Shown here: positions 739 through 8,799 of the stretch, piece after piece
Position numbering within the stretch: position 1 is the stretch's first letter
Layout of the letters: the number at the start of each line of letters is the position of its first letter
Source: Hypomyces perniciosus
Taxonomy: Eukaryota; Ascomycota; Sordariomycetes; Hypocreales; Hypocreaceae
Length of the DNA stretch: 64,000 nt
NCBI GenBank assembly: GCA_008477525.1
Contig: SPDT01000005.1
Span: forward strand, 682,001-746,000
Direction of reading: 5' to 3'
Made by a program: the position numbers and the translations under genes
The notes under the pieces: model-generated
Told to the model about the DNA's origin: nothing
Database searches by the model: none
The model's input: the letters and a program-made list of their open reading frames with translations, nothing else

Positions 739-3700
739 TCACGCACCAACTTGTTTCTTTGAGAGCTTCCTCATTCTTCTCTTTATGTACTTGAACATGC
801 TAGGCTGAAAGGTTCGCTCCGACATGCCTCTAGCAGATAGCATCTCAAACTCGTCCAAGACATCATCCTCGTCAACGTCGCTACGGGTCGAGTCCTGTTG
901 TTGTCTCTTATATGTTTCAGGTACGTTCGTTTCCCCCATCTTGGTCGCCCTTGCAAGTTGTGCACGGTAGGTTGCCGCCAGGTCAGCCATGCTGGTTAGT
1001 GTATCACGGTGCTCCTCCCCTAATACCTTCCGCCTCTTTTCCAGCACTTCCATCTGTAGCTCTTCTGCCTCCTTCAATTTCCCTTGCCTCGTGTAGATAA
1101 GTGCCATGTCAGCCATGATGGTTAGTGTATCACGGCGCTCCGTCCCCAAGCAGCTCCGCATTCCCGCCAGCACTATCGCCTGTACATCTTCTGCCTCCTC
1201 TAATTTTCCTTGCCTCATGTATATAAGAACTAGGCTAGTCGTGATGATTAATATGTTAGGGTACTCCTCTGATTTCATACTACTAGTAGTATCCAGTGTC
1301 GCCTCGTCAAGTTGTGTCCGTAGCTTTCGTGTGTTCTCTAACACCTTTGCAGCCCCATGGTGGCGCTGGAGTCTAATCCCCGACGCCCATATGTTTAATC
1401 TAGTACTGCCCCTCAGCATCATCGCCATTATGTATACCGTTGCCCGTTCTGCCTCCTCCCATAGCTCTAGCTTGATGCACACGAAGGCTAGATTGGCCAT
1501 GCTCGTCATTCTCGTCATGGCATCCCCCTTTCCTTCCACGCGGAAGAGGAGCTCTTTTGCCGATAGCCATTCTCCTTTCTTGGTGTACGTGAATGCTAGG
1601 TTGGCCATAATCCCCAACGTTAAGGGATGCTCGTCTCCTAGTGCCTTCCTCATTCCCTCCAATGCTTGTGTTTGCATTTCTTCGGCCTCTTCATATCTGT
1701 CCTGGCACAGAAATTCCAGTCCAAGCTGGTCAACGGAGGTAAGAGTATCTGTATGCTCTCGTCCTAGCATTTTTTCTTCATGTGCTATTCTTTGCCGGAG
1801 ATATTCTTCAACCTCGCCAAGTTCGTTCTGGCTTTCAGGGAATAATATATACGGCCTCATCAAAAAGTGGAGATTCAGCATTGAGTCAGCCTATTTCGTC
1901 GGCTTCCTCACCGAATGCTCGCTCAATTCTGCTCTCAAAAACATATAGCACAGGAGAAACCGACCCCTTTCTTTCTCCCCCCCAAAGGAGTGACATCACA
2001 CTGTTGTTGCTCCGAGAAGATACCGCCTCACTTCTTCCGCTTCCAAAAGAAACAGACCCATCCCTCTGTTTCCACTTCTCAAGCTCTTCCTCCCATGAAG
2101 CGACTGACTCAAGTTCGCTGGAGGTTGAAGTTATTAAACTGCCTGCAAAATATGCATTGTGCTGAAAGTACCCGGAGGCATCTACTTTCTTCTCCGGAGA
2201 TTCTTGCGCTTCCTCACGCTTCTCATTCAACAGATTGTTGCGTCTGAGCCAGTCGTAAACCTTGTAGCTGCTCTCGTTTATTCTCTTGTCGGTCTCCCCG
2301 TTATCGTCTGCCCATGGTAACGATCGAAGCGAGAAAGAATGTATGTCTTTGGCAATGTGATCGAGGAGCACATCTTTGTTTATTTCGCCTTCTTGGGTTT
2401 CTGCCCAATTACAGAGCGGACATGACGTAATATCCATCGGAGCCGAACGCCTGGAAACATCAACTAGGAGTGGAATTTGGTCCTGTGGTACGGATGCCGC
2501 ATGTTTTGCCGTGATATGTTCCTCAAGGGCATCTTCACTGCGAAACTGTGGGCCATCTGGACAGGAATAGCAGACCCAGTACTCAAAGCTACTGTGTTCA
2601 TTGAGGAGATGTGCTCGCCAGGAATCCTTTGTGGCAAAGAGAGTCTCAGGTTTCGTGCACTCCGGCAGTATGCAAGTGTACGGGCTAAGGTCGTCGGCAA
2701 GGTGTTTTCTATCTTAGCTCAGCGTCATGCGTAACTCCATCCAGACCAAGGGACTAACTTCCACCTGCGATCTTCTGAGTAATCCCTGGGGAGTGCTTGA
2801 CAACAGCAAGGGCACTTGAAAACAAGGGCTTCCTCATCCACTCTTGGAGGGTGAGGGTATTTAAGCGAGATCACGGTTGACGACATGACAGTCGATGCAG
2901 CTGGTGCTGATTTGTGTACTTGCTGTAAAATAAGGGCATCGCCAACAGCGGACGTGCTGGTGCCTGTTCTTATTGTGGGATTCACCGGTGTCCCTGCTTC
3001 CTGGTCTGGGGGTTTCTCTATGGCAGGTAGAGAGATCTGGATTCCCTTGGCCGACTCTCGAGAAATGATCGGACAGGCATCAATTGCCTCGACAGGTTGG
3101 ATCTGGGATTGGCCCTCTACAACACCCGGACCCAGCTTTTCAGAATGTTGTTGCGCATATAAGAAGCGGTTTCGACGCTTCAGGTTGCACCGGATTAGAC
3201 GTTTCTGGACCTCGCTCAGTCTGGTAGGGTCGATTTGTGCTTTCAAAAACCCCGGATCGGTCTGTTCAAACGAATTGAAAGGTCCTCTGGAAAACTCAGG
3301 GTGGGTGAGCACAATTGTAATGAGATGCTGTTGTAAGTCTTCATGATCCCCTGGTTTGAACCGCTGATCTGCTTTCTGTAGTCGCGAACGTCTGCCTGAC
3401 CTTCGCACTGCGACAGCGATCCGGGCAAGTTGATCAAGCATCACCTCTATAGCTTTCATTTGTCTGTGCAACGGGCTGCGCGAAGCGAGCTGTTTCAACT
3501 CTGTTTCTAATTCTTCATCGGTAGATTCATCCGACCAAGCGGATGATGGACGGTCGCTTTGCTCTTCCATGAGGGGATGCTCATGGGCATGTTCTCCATC
3601 TTGGTTGGGTATTATCTCAGAGAGTGCTAAGGGATATCGTGTCTGAATTAGCGGCTGATAAGTTGGCAGGATGAAATAAATATTTTCTTTTCCCTCACCT

Positions 3701-3969
3701 AACGTTCTGCACTTATCGATGGCTCCAGTGAGCTGATTCAAAAGACTCACTATTACGCCACGGGCTTCTGGTTCAAGGGCGAGTCTCGAGTCGAGAGAAG
3801 CTCGCCTCTGAGCGGATGCACCAGTACTAGAGACCCAGAGGTTGAAGTCCGCCATGCGGTTCTCAGCCCATTCATCCTTCATTAGTGGCTCGACGGCCAG
3901 GCAGGCAGCGAAGCCCTGCAAGCATTCTGCACTTGCTTCAGAAATCATCTTGCCATTTTGGATGGACAT
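739..3969 (-). CDS. C2H2 zinc-finger / kinesin-light-chain-type TPR repeat protein
   Basis: Large fungal repeat protein. The first exon starts at 3969 and encodes about 400 residues of a helical N-terminal region, shared by many fungal C2H2-TPR proteins, ending in a Cys-rich motif (FKCPCCCQALP). A clear 50-nt intron (2758-2709, GTTAGT...ATAG) restores the frame into C2H2-like fingers: C-x4-C...H-x4-H near YTCILPECT, then CYSCPDG and CPLCNW. The C-terminal 380 residues (1881-739) are 42-residue TPRs of kinesin-light-chain type (GREHTDTLTSVDQLG, GDEHPLTLGIMANLA). The finger and TPR frames differ around 1915-1805. A GTGAGG donor at 1911 suggests an intron, but no acceptor is clearly best, so a frameshift is possible. 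There is no NB-ARC or NACHT domain. The family is often linked to fungal non-self recognition repertoires; the exact role is unknown. It is divergent from the gasdermin-like gene, 320 bp apart. Confidence 0.75.
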
Positions 3970-4289: not shown

Positions 4290-5189
4290 ATGGCGCAGCA
4301 ACCCACGTATCTTCTTGCGCCCAGCTTTCGTTTCAAACCTGGCACAGGCCCGATAGCTCTGGGGAACATCATTGCAGACCCTCTGCGGCCGCATCGGGCG
4401 CTAACGACCGTCGAAGCTGAGGCCTTGAAGACGGATTACCCGCGAGTCGAAACGATCACCGATCACAACCGTAGCATGACTCGCAGTGCTATTCACGATA
4501 TTTCGATGGCTATATGGTCCCAATTCCTGCAAACCGTCTCTACTAAAGTGTCCGGCGAGCGAAGTGTCAACGTACAAACAAGCTATACAATGGAAGCTCT
4601 TGAAACAGCTTACTTTGTCACTGACCCGACGCTGAATGTGATTGAAGCTCGCCTCAAGACCCCGCGTGTGCAGGCAGTTATCAAGGCTAGTAACATGCCT
4701 GGGTTCCGGCATCCAGTTTATATGGTCACTGGCTTGATGGTTGCAAAGGGCTTCGCCGCCGTTCAGGAAAGGGGGAAGAACAGGGCTGGTGAGGTGGCGG
4801 TTAGTGGCGATGTTCCCACGCCTGCAGGTGATGTAGGGCTCGGGGCCAGTCTCGCCAGTTCCACTGCCGCTGTGGAGAGCGATGCGTGGAAGGCAGGAGA
4901 GGATATCGTATTCGCTTATCAGCTCCTCAAGATCGAGGTCAAGGGTTGGAGAGGGACAAGAATCGAGTATGATGAACTTAGACACAAGGCGGCTTATCTC
5001 AGCAAAGACGATGATGATGAGGGTGAGGAATCAGATGATGAGGATGCAGACGACGAGATAAGGGAACAGATTACTACATGTGTAACGAGTGTGGATAATC
5101 TGTCACCTTCCAGCGTGGGAGGAATTAAGGTGGTGGAGGTGGGAGAAGGCAAGCACAGTATCACATGTATATCAGCTGTCGATTCATAA
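4290..5189 (+). CDS. Gasdermin-like pore-forming cell-death protein (fungal HET-Q1/RCD-1 type)
   Basis: Intronless 299-residue protein. The start was chosen at the ATG in a strong CACCATGG context; an upstream TTG in the same frame is not used. I read it as a fungal gasdermin from its overall pattern. It has an N-terminal block with ALGNIIADPLRPHRAL (about 23-38), a central block SFLQTVSTKV-like (about 77-87) then SYTMEALETAYF (98-109), and RPVYMVTGLMVAKGF-like strand-turn-strand (about 141-155). The near-neighbour gene also fits. Fungal gasdermins are held inactive by a short C-terminal tail that a protease removes, after which the N-terminal part makes membrane pores and kills the cell. Here a very acidic run (about 240-256) separates the roughly 235-residue body from a 40-residue tail, which fits such a release region (inference). 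The gene lies tail to tail with an S8 protease gene, 132 bp away, as in het-Q1/het-Q2. Identification rests on memory of the family, not on a search. Confidence 0.72.
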   Translation: MAQQPTYLLAPSFRFKPGTGPIALGNIIADPLRPHRALTTVEAEALKTDYPRVETITDHNRSMTRSAIHDISMAIWSQFLQTVSTKVSGERSVNVQTSYTMEALETAYFVTDPTLNVIEARLKTPRVQAVIKASNMPGFRHPVYMVTGLMVAKGFAAVQERGKNRAGEVAVSGDVPTPAGDVGLGASLASSTAAVESDAWKAGEDIVFAYQLLKIEVKGWRGTRIEYDELRHKAAYLSKDDDDEGEESDDEDADDEIREQITTCVTSVDNLSPSSVGGIKVVEVGEGKHSITCISAVDS

Positions 5190-5878
5190 AGACTATGAGG
5201 AGGCAGGTATAAAGTCCAGATAATTTCTACCTGCCTACTACCTGTCAAGTCACTTTCACCTCTTGTAATGGCTCTTGATACTTGGTGTTTACTTAATTTC
5301 TATTAATTACCCGCAAAATACTAGATGCTCGCTAATGCTGCTGCAATGGTTACCCATCGTTCATCTTCAGATTTGTCTATTAGCTGCCACGGCGTCAGGT
5401 ACAAGTAGTGTCCATTCAACGACGGCATGGAAAGGGCCTTGAATAAGGCCAATATCCTACGACGTGTCCGTATCTTACTTTTAATGTTCTGTAATGCAGC
5501 ATCTGACAATGTGCCGACTTCCGCTCTGCCGTTTACGTATCCCAGTAGAACGCCTGCTATGCCTGCCACTATTGCGGTTGCAACCGAGGTACCAGATTGG
5601 TATTTTTCGCCATTGTGGTCGCTCAGCCATGTTCCTGGGACCGCCAAGCCCAGAGTTCCAAATACTGCTGTTTCGTTCTCGTTCCGCGGGGGGTTGAAGT
5701 CTTCAAAGTGACCGTTTACATTGGTGGCGCGGATAGAGATGGCAGAGTCATGGCTCGCAGGGAACATCTCCTTCTGGTTTGCTCCAAAGTTTGAGGCAGC
5801 TGCGAAGAAAAGTATAGAGCCATGACGATGATTCAAGGCATCGAGTATGGCATTGCTGATGCACTGCTGCTCCTCTGC

Positions 5879-5881
5879 CTA
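5879..5881 (-). other. In-frame amber stop inside the S8 protease
   Basis: The codon follows a conserved IISMSFG-type strand of the subtilase, and the same frame continues past it, open and family-like, to 5321. It comes 57 bases after a well-formed intron acceptor (AG ends at 5939). No GT donor upstream and AG downstream would remove it at a normal fungal intron length. It removes the Asn and Ser needed for catalysis. Confidence 0.85.
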
Positions 5882-6562
5882 TCCAAATGACATCGAGATT
5901 ATGTCGGCTTTCCATTCCTTGCTTGCCCAGGAGATGGCCTGAAATCTTGTTAGTAGACTCAGACTCATCTGTTAAAAAAGACTTCTTCTACCTTTGCGAC
6001 ATTCTCGCTTGCCATTGAGAGTTCATTGGGACTTGCTGCGACACGCGCTACGTATACATCTGCTTCTGTAGCAATCTTCATAATGAGAGAGGCCAAGTGA
6101 GTTCCATGCCCGTGGTTGTCCACCCACTCTTCGGAGCCACCGACATAGTCTTTCCATTCTTTGAGGCGAGCCAAATTGTGTGGAAGGTGGAAGAAGCTGG
6201 AATCATCATCGCAACCAGTGTCCAGAATAGCGATCCGAATCCGCGCGGAGGAATGACTGGGAGCCATGCCTGGGGTAGCTGCCAGCATTCTGCTCAGCCG
6301 TTGCATACGTGAGAGCCACTCTCTTGCCGCTTTCTCATTCTTCTCATTCTCCGTATGGGCTTTCTTGGATTTCCGGTTCACTTGTTGCTCCAGCAAAACA
6401 TTACTAAGAGACTGTCGCGCAACCTGCTGAACGGGGGTATTTCCGACTGAAGTGTCCAGAGGGCCAATTTTATTTTGAGTCAGCTGTTCCATCCACTTTG
6501 TCCCTTCGAGGAGCTCCTTTAGCCGAGAGACGACCTTTTCGTACAGGATGTCCCTCCGCTTT

Positions 6563-6566
6563 GGGG
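6563..6566 (-). other. Frameshift site in the S8 protease (C4 run on the coding strand)
   Basis: Upstream of this run the family-like reading is in one frame (CLDPGTFVFTP). Downstream the conserved linker to the subtilase continues in the frame one base short. A homopolymer site can also be an assembly error, so read evidence is needed. Confidence 0.75.
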
Positions 6567-8227
6567 TGTAAAAACAAACGTTCCAGGGTCCAAACAGTCC
6601 TTGGCCGCATTACGATAATCAGAGTATTCAAAGTCTATCCAGAGCCTGTCGTTGTTCAGGCACTGAATAGCTAATAGTAAGTCTTCGTTGGCACTGGCCG
6701 CCAGCGACTGTGCTTGATCCCGACGTTCCCGCCTAGGAAGCGGTGACCCGATGCCAATCTCGACCAACATGATTCCAAGCGCTCGGATCCTTGGGTAGTG
6801 ATGAATCTCACCTTCGATGGCACTATACTCACCTGACCAGGGGTCCTCGTCGCCGAAATGCACTGAGAGATAAGGTCTGGACGGAAACAATTGACCCTGA
6901 TCGCTAGGAATACTGCTTCCACGCTCCTTAATGAACTGAATCGACTCGCTCGTCCATCTCGTCTTCATCCAGTCCGAATCGTAGTACTGCCAGACAGACT
7001 GGGCAAGGATGTAGGCCAGCACGGCTTTCACCTTGGCTGAGACATGGTAGTTCTTCAGAATACTGGCAAGCGAGATGCCGGGAACGTGCTGAACCATTTG
7101 CTTCAGGAAATCCGATCTATACCTCTGAAGCTTTCCGTCTTGGATCGCTAAGCGGACACGCGAGCCGGTATCCACCTTCACGAGCTCACAAAACTTCCCC
7201 TGACCAATTACCCCAATCGCACTCTCTGTGGACGAAAACAGCTGGGCGCAACCACCGTCCCCGGGGAATCTTGCGCGCCTATTTGGCTTCTTTTGCTTCT
7301 TTTGGGCCCTGATTTTCTGTCAGCTTCAGCGATAGCATGTCGAATCTTTAAAAACCTTACTGTGGAACGAGCAGCTCTACATCTTGCCAGCGATCGAACT
7401 GCTCCCCCCATGCCGGACTTGATGAGAAGAGCATGTCAAACTGAACTTGGCCGTCGTCGTTCATGTTTTGCAGCAGCGGCCGCAGCATTAATCTGGCCAA
7501 GTGACTGCGCCTGCCATGATCTTCCCAGACCGGCCCATTACATGTGCAACACATGTGTTCTCGTAAGACGCCGTATATTTGGTCGTGGATTTCGCTAGGA
7601 TGTGGATCGACAGGCCTATCCTTTCGAGACTTCATCGGTATATCCTCGTCGACATTATGCCGCTTGATGTTGCCTCGCTCCACGATTCTTTTCAAGCGGA
7701 GAATGGCCTCGTCGCCATTATTGGTCTTCGATACGAGATTCTGTAGTCCTTGCTGGACTTGTTTCTGAGCCCTTTTATATCTTTGTGAGCCTACTGCCTC
7801 CTGTGCGATGGCCTCCAAGAGTGGGTAACGGCTTGTTGGGACTCGCATTGGCCACTAATAGATATTAGCACCACTAAACTATTGCCGGGTCCCTTACCCA
7901 GAAGTAGGATACTTCCAGACTTACACTACAAATCTTTTCAACATGCCTCAACAACTTTGAGGTGCGCGACCGCAGTTCTTCATCATCATCATCGGGATCA
8001 GTGGAGCTAAGGTAGTCGGCTACTAGCCACAATTCTGTGCCAAGAGAAGCGTACGTCGGTTCCCTGGAAAGCGTTCCTAGTATTATGGCAATTTCCGCAA
8101 TTCGGCGGATGCCAATTTGTGCGAGGTCCGGCGAGTCCTCCAAGGCCATCGTGAATCCCACCGAGTAGCTGATTCCGAAACGCTGGCAACTCTGGACAAG
8201 GTTGGGAGGGAACGAACCCAACGCCAT

Positions 8228-8799
8228 CCCCACCTTTCTAACCGCCCGAATTCTGGTTAACAGCTGAACAACGGGTTCCTATGGGCTGGAAATCTCCGTC
8301 TTTCGGGTGGGGTTGAGCTGGCAACCCAGTTGAGCCTCATAGGCTATGAACTCCCTGTCCACATCGACTTGGCAATGTAACCCCAGAAAGTTTGTGAGCA
8401 TAGTTCACTAGCTAACATATACATTATAATGTATCGTTTCAGATATTTCTCGAATTAAATCTTTTCCATTGCTTCGTCCTTTAGGCTCCGTTGGCTAAAG
8501 AAACAGAGAAAGCATATCAGGGACGGCCCGTGCCGTGTGGATCGGATATGGTCCAGGACGGAGCTGCGAGTGCCGATGGCTTATTAAGGTTTGCTCCGGG
8601 TTTGCGAAGACTTCCGCGCGATAAATTACGTGTAAATAATCGTCTTTTTCTTTTTTTGGGAAAAAGAATATTGAATCTCATACGGTCCAAGTAGATCGCC
8701 CTCATTGCCGGCGCACCATGCCACTTCGGCGTCTGTATTTGCGGTATCTCGGTTGTCGTGACGATCATGAAGTTGGGGCCATACATAGACATAAAACCT
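8228..8799. other. Spacer between two decayed genes, nothing recognised
   Basis: This covers the region upstream of the protease start and beyond the recognisable end of the transcription-factor relic. The short open frames have no family resemblance. The 5' end of the protease and the 3' end of the transcription factor may extend into it. Confidence 0.5.

Follow-up and report, generated by a model that had tools for sequence, protein, structure and literature searches.

A gasdermin gene of Hypomyces perniciosus lies between a broken DUF7580-subtilisin protease gene and a receptor-like zinc-finger gene in a probable three-component cell-death cluster

The DNA analysed here, called the window throughout, is a 64,000-nt stretch of Hypomyces perniciosus (SPDT01000005.1, positions 682,001-746,000, forward strand) in which a gasdermin gene lies between an S8 protease gene and a receptor-like zinc-finger gene. 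The gasdermin gene (4290..5189, plus strand) is intron-free with an open frame of 299 amino acids. A preliminary description, made from the letters alone, had read this compact gene as a fungal gasdermin, and both profile and structure comparisons of 4290-5189 with gasdermins bear this out. Indeed, a profile search retrieves RCD-1 at 7.4e-10 and the HET-Q1 pore (9uv9) at 0.0017, the protein as a single query matches RCD-1-2 at 3.7e-4, and its predicted structure contains the gasdermin N-domain fold; the same open reading frame returns zero Pfam families at E ≤ 1. On the strength of these matches and of a model, the product is a member of the fungal gasdermin family, with a predicted pore-forming domain at residues ~1-232 and an acidic tail at residues 237-299, modelled with low confidence and presumed inhibitory. 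Its closest named relatives, among the matches listed, are from Trichoderma (75%). Three relatives from Penicillium herquei and Pleurostoma richardsiae (P0056, P0064, and P0094) carry the public label "aldehyde dehydrogenase conserved site," probably a misannotation that conceals gasdermins in these two species.

Tail to tail with the gasdermin, on the minus strand, lies the protease gene (5321..8149), whose end at 5321 is ~131 bp from the gasdermin stop. Pfam assigns its minus-strand pieces to DUF7580 (E 2.3e-19) and twice to Peptidase_S8 (E 1.1e-4 and 5.1e-5, both barely over the cut-off of 21.8 bits), which agrees with the earlier reading of an S8 protease with a DUF7580 front half in this orientation. 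A start at 8227, as first proposed, is possible, but the first residue falls at 8149-8161 in five of the nine relatives aligned, the other four being partial or starting further in, and we take 8149 as the start. A TAG stop near 8280 was considered as a third lesion and rejected, because it lies upstream of the gene as delimited by the starts of these relatives.

Piecewise alignment of the nine relatives to the window was used to map the lesions. The T. chlorosporum protein P0153 (897 amino acids) aligns from 8161 to 5324 in five stretches with 51-65% identity, and three of the breaks, judging from the relatives and from their consensus ends, would be introns, at 7855..7924 (GTAAGT...TTAG), 7317..7360 (GTAAGG donor, acceptor at 7317 or 7309), and 5939..5991 (GTAGAA...TACTAAC...CAG). 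The other two are lesions. The first is a change of reading frame at 6561..6570, in a poorly conserved loop following DUF7580, and the frame upstream of it, which spans most of DUF7580 (6570..7319), ends in unrelated residues and stops at 6519-6521. The second is an in-frame TAG at 5879..5881, within the S8 domain and in the middle of a conserved exon that aligns with the relatives on both flanks. The first half of the S8 domain (5992..6561) keeps the Asp motif AILDTG (from 6231) and the His motif HGHGTH (from 6114), and the second half (5324..5938), downstream of the TAG, keeps the Asn motif AAASN (from 5803) and the Ser motif SGTSVATAI (from 5596), so that all four catalytic motifs persist in the DNA. 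With lesions at 6570-6561 and 5881-5879, the protease cannot be full length in the predicted frame and is a broken member of its family; the broken protease arm of the preliminary description is thus confirmed by comparison with relatives.

The loss looks recent, because the start, the three introns, and the four catalytic motifs remain; as far as the sequence indicates, the broken copy may instead be allelic, an error of assembly being less likely. Divergence was compared across seven relatives, the T. viride protease model being partial (559 amino acids). Between the window and T. chlorosporum, identity is 76% for the gasdermin and 61/67/65% for the three protease pieces; the corresponding values are 71% and 65/70/71% for T. 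chlorosporum and T. viride, 66% and 51/55/62% for the window and A. sclerotialis, and 61% and 48/51/54% for T. chlorosporum and A. sclerotialis, with A. wentii and A. sclerotialis as a contrasting pair (64% and 60/65/73%). The window protease shows no clear excess divergence. Repeat-induced point mutation was rejected as the cause of the lesions, since the TA/AT index is not raised (0.65 in the protease against 0.69 in the whole window). That the gene is intact in nature, and that frame change and stop are both errors of the assembly, would fit the preserved introns, start, and catalytic motifs and the lack of clear excess divergence. We nevertheless hold this to be improbable: two separate errors would be needed, one of them an in-frame stop in a conserved exon, and the same assembly carries at C8:2194608 (locus L014) a paralogous protease with a 655-codon frame that runs without interruption across DUF7580 and S8.

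The DUF7580 half of the protease is modelled with a protein-kinase-like fold. With motif positions placed by eye, the position of the HRD aspartate is occupied by Trp in 44 of 46 rows, and at that of the DFG aspartate the six commonest residues, which account for 37 of the 46 rows, do not include Asp. The domain is thus predicted to be kinase-like with its catalytic aspartates apparently missing.

On the other side of the gasdermin, a receptor-like gene is transcribed divergently from it, with starts 320 bp apart. Its exon A (2759..3969, minus strand) encodes an N-terminal domain (3706-3948), a linker, and the start of a zinc-finger block; exon B (1889..2708, minus strand) holds the C2H2-like zinc-finger block (2312-2710) and a second linker; and TPR repeats at 742..1890, on the same strand (TPR_12, E 2.1e-33), are the probable C-terminal sensor part. 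In Pfam the zinc-finger block matches C2H2 weakly (E 0.0036, under the cut-off). The precomputed lists of several receptor relatives contain PF26082, which we take from its name to be a zinc-finger family.

Does this neighbourhood recur? The genome searched (44.0 Mb, 23 contigs) contains five gasdermin matches, in the window and at C8:2194608, C8:4043382, C22:4767133, and C8:3093564, the second of these loci, L014, encoding a gasdermin 47% identical to that of the window. An S8 match lies tail to tail with the gasdermin at all five loci and all five proteases carry DUF7580, a pairing that is not due to chance. Judging from their sequences, the three remaining paralogous proteases, with S8 pieces spread across exons, look intact; the closest named relative of the L014 protease, among the matches listed, is from Pseudogymnoascus (67%). 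A receptor gene is likewise present at 5/5 gasdermin loci, and the two-gene module of the preliminary description consequently counts too few genes. At all five, the receptor opens with an N-terminal domain (A2, ~80 residues), which a linker connects to a C2H2-like zinc-finger block (A1), and what follows varies: TPR in the window and at L016, a NACHT-type domain with a winged helix and ankyrin repeats at L014 and L015, and nothing known at L017. The exons of the L014 and L015 receptors (on L020 and L021) match NPHP3_N and winged-helix families, with NACHT just under the cut-off on L020; for the window and L016 (on L022), the exons scanned match TPR, with zero nucleotide-binding matches, and the L017 receptor (on L023) has no Pfam match at E ≤ 0.01. 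At L014-L017 the receptor is divergent from the protease, unlike in the window, where it stands on the gasdermin side. By alignment score, all three gene families yield the same closest pairs of loci, window with L014 and L016 with L017, which is what joint inheritance of the trio would predict.

Two further places in the genome carry S8 matches. At L028 (C3:1521801-1522724), a sixth S8 copy that shares 71% identity with the C8:2194608 protease is decayed, its stops comprising four TAG and one TAA; no gasdermin match lies nearby, and this is a second dead protease of the family. At L018 (C16:1320000-1329000), two S8 matches on opposite strands lie within ~3 kb of each other, also without a gasdermin match nearby.

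The receptor N-terminal domain is matched at nine places in the genome, each with a zinc-finger match alongside, and all nine genes lie within ~3 kb of a DUF7580 gene. Four are at the other gasdermin loci, one is that of the window, with the gasdermin in between, and four (L024-L027, on C5, C3, C23, and C14) are elsewhere, where receptor and DUF7580 genes are transcribed divergently and neither an S8 nor a gasdermin match lies nearby. When 9 and 11 genes were placed at random 20,000 times, no more than 2/9 fell within 5 kb. DUF7580 is also matched at C23:2594006 and C22:2731678, without a receptor match nearby. An open frame containing MSG.E.AG.VLGA.P precedes DUF7580 at L024, L026, and L027. 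A HeLo-like N-terminus for the four S8-less DUF7580 proteins, suggested by a resemblance, was rejected, the ten pieces scanned giving no HeLo-like Pfam match at E ≤ 1. The zinc-finger receptor and the DUF7580 pseudokinase-like protein may, with about even chances, form a conserved fungal signalling core on which death outputs are mounted, S8 and gasdermin at five loci and neither at the other four. These four S8-free pairs among nine, together with a frame that still spans most of DUF7580 upstream of the first lesion, also lend themselves to a different account of the window, in which the receptor and the shortened DUF7580 protein would retain an S8-free role, leaving cleavage of the gasdermin to a paralogous protease. 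The truncated frame terminates in unrelated residues, and we consider this account unlikely.

Relatives in other fungi were compared using the best 120 of 163 gasdermin rows, 80 protease rows, and 109 receptor rows at E ≤ 1e-5. Contigs shared between families were recognized by equal contig size, a criterion under which chance coincidence is possible for a few short metagenome pieces; a length filter leaves out long receptors, and many of the relatives' contigs are short. Among the rows compared, gasdermin and protease have 15 contigs in common, gasdermin and receptor 19, protease and receptor 14, and all three families 7, T. chlorosporum and T. ceciliae being examples of species with the whole trio on a single contig. 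From tag numbers, members of the trio are likely adjacent in other ascomycetes. Receptor, gasdermin, and protease bear the consecutive tags PHISCL_03792/03793/03794 in A. sclerotialis and the tags V8C37DRAFT_378458/378459/378462 in T. ceciliae; receptor and gasdermin are Q9160_006648/006647 in Pyrenula, where the receptor has TPR like that of the window, and N7482_000471/000472 in P. canariense. Furthermore, receptor and protease have near-consecutive tags in AbraIFM66950_006298 and 006296, N8T08_009505 and 009507, and FGADI_11481/11480, and gasdermin and protease are TARUN_8913/8912 and ACHAQJ_010699/010698. The gene order of the window was considered as a private inversion and rejected, since receptor and gasdermin tags are consecutive in A. 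sclerotialis, T. ceciliae, Pyrenula, and P. canariense as well. The P. viridicatum protein P0249, which combines S8 with a receptor, was rejected as a true fusion: its S8 part has no protease front and its receptor part no N-terminal domain, and, read by eye, it is more likely a merged model of neighbouring cluster genes. In the 109 receptor rows, precomputed Pfam matches and given names include WD40, ankyrin, TPR, protein kinase, PNP_UDP, and phospholipase C modules, some of these names being those we presume for the Pfam accessions.

We regard it as probable that the three genes constitute a regulated-cell-death cluster in which receptor, pseudokinase-protease, and gasdermin are separate proteins, the protease being inactive in this assembly. 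In the proposed mechanism, the zinc-finger receptor would sense a signal through an exchangeable sensor part (TPR in the window) and act on the DUF7580-S8 protein, in which DUF7580 may serve as the relay and S8 as the cutter. S8 would then cleave the gasdermin in its short C-terminal tail, the likeliest site being near the partly conserved HKAAYL (residues 232-237), and the freed gasdermin would open pores in the fungus's own membrane and lead to cell death. Here there is no full-length protease, and therefore the window gasdermin is probably idle unless cut by another protease, for example the C8 paralogue.

Several observations weigh against this interpretation. Placing the receptor upstream of the protease is a suggestion by guilt by association, drawn from gene neighbourhoods. 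Confidence in the modelled gasdermin structure is middling (mean predicted local distance difference test, pLDDT, 68), and Foldseek matches the DUF7580 model to nothing at E ≤ 0.001 (best 1.6e-3). The TPR exon of the receptor is joined to exon B tentatively, and the frame change in the protease could be an assembly error. Zinc-finger matches without the N-terminal domain occur at C8:1495504 and C3:4622586 in both searches, with four weaker ones in one search only. In other fungi, 101 of the 120 gasdermin rows have no contig in common with a listed receptor, a listed receptor row is missing from 8 of the 15 gasdermin-protease contigs, and on chromosome-sized contigs a common contig does not mean adjacency. 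The last counts would also suit a plain HET-Q1/HET-Q2-type gene pair with the zinc-finger gene as a bystander amid immune genes, and the reviews PMC10197012 and PMC12881547 describe two-gene clusters with receptor-like proteases. Such a pair is nonetheless quite unlikely in our view, given a receptor at 5/5 gasdermin loci, a DUF7580 gene adjoining each of the nine genes with the receptor N-terminal domain, and relatives linked across several ascomycete genera, some by consecutive tags.

The three-component cluster resembles HET-Q1/HET-Q2 of Podospora anserina in its short-tailed gasdermin and S8 protease, and the HET-Q1 pore entry is matched by profile. The protease is not a close counterpart of HET-Q2: HET-Q2 has 388 amino acids and is an idiomorph of het-Q1 (PMC10989679, PMC12881547), whereas here the neighbour is a larger multidomain protein on the same chromosome, its relatives P0153, P0136, and P0135 having 897, 877, and 876 amino acids with DUF7580, and there is a third gene. 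The het-Q1 and het-Q2 idiomorphs (PMC12881547), the two unrelated hetB alleles of A. fumigatus, with a CHAT protease allele in 22/46 assemblies including related species (PMC11138114), and the apparently recent loss of the protease would all accord with one haplotype of a balanced allorecognition locus, as proposed in the preliminary description, with an intact protease in other isolates. We consider this unlikely, since the arrangement is a cluster conserved across genera and not an idiomorph, ordinary birth and death would produce one null copy just as readily, and the sequence would be the same after a recent loss private to this strain or an error of assembly.

As for other systems, the Q2L protease/fungal gasdermin clusters share with ours the neighbouring genes. 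According to PMC10197012, S8 proteases cluster with about 63% of the gasdermins of fungi (~60% in PMC10989679), ~80% of which have a protease neighbour of some kind (PMC10197012, PMC10989679), and some Q2L proteases are fused to kinase-like domains (PMC12881547). In the published Q2L scheme the sensor repeats are on the protease itself (a "contracted" pathway, NOD-like receptor (NLR)-fused), and here a receptor gene distinct from the protease carries the sensor modules. Neurospora crassa RCD-1 differs in acting through two allelic partners without cleavage (PMC12881547), the window protein having an acidic tail and a protease neighbour, and bacterial gasdermin-protease operons differ from eukaryotic genes with introns (in protease and receptor) and a separate receptor. 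The mammalian inflammasome-caspase-gasdermin axis is alike by analogy, in that receptor, protease, and gasdermin would be three separate proteins; it uses a caspase and death domains as against a subtilisin, the pseudokinase-like DUF7580, and zinc fingers, and we claim homology only for the gasdermin and NACHT parts. Two- or three-gene clusters are mentioned in PMC12881547, with no third gene named for gasdermins in the part available. A survey of Sordariales NLRs counts 34 with C2H2 fingers, the zinc fingers being mostly C-terminal (PMC12258605); its main text does not contain the word gasdermin. Neither "zinc finger" nor "C2H2" occurs in the part of PMC9815663 available, and that of PMC13311144, which regards HeLo proteins as gasdermin-like, does not mention zinc fingers. 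DUF7580 was not found by name in the literature searched, nor was a separate receptor gene recurring with gasdermin and protease, the primary survey PMC8851545 not being covered.

A gasdermin beside an S8 protease is a known rule in fungi, to which the window adds a member with a broken copy of the protease. The separate receptor gene that recurs with both is apparently a new element, as judged from the literature searched. It provides a concrete candidate for the upstream step that is missing, and one that deletion and co-expression could test. The broken protease offers a natural example of a retained killer whose trigger has been lost. If the three-component reading is true, these fungi would possess a mammal-like division of labour between receptor, protease, and gasdermin built from other parts, that is, an uncontracted, inflammasome-like pathway.

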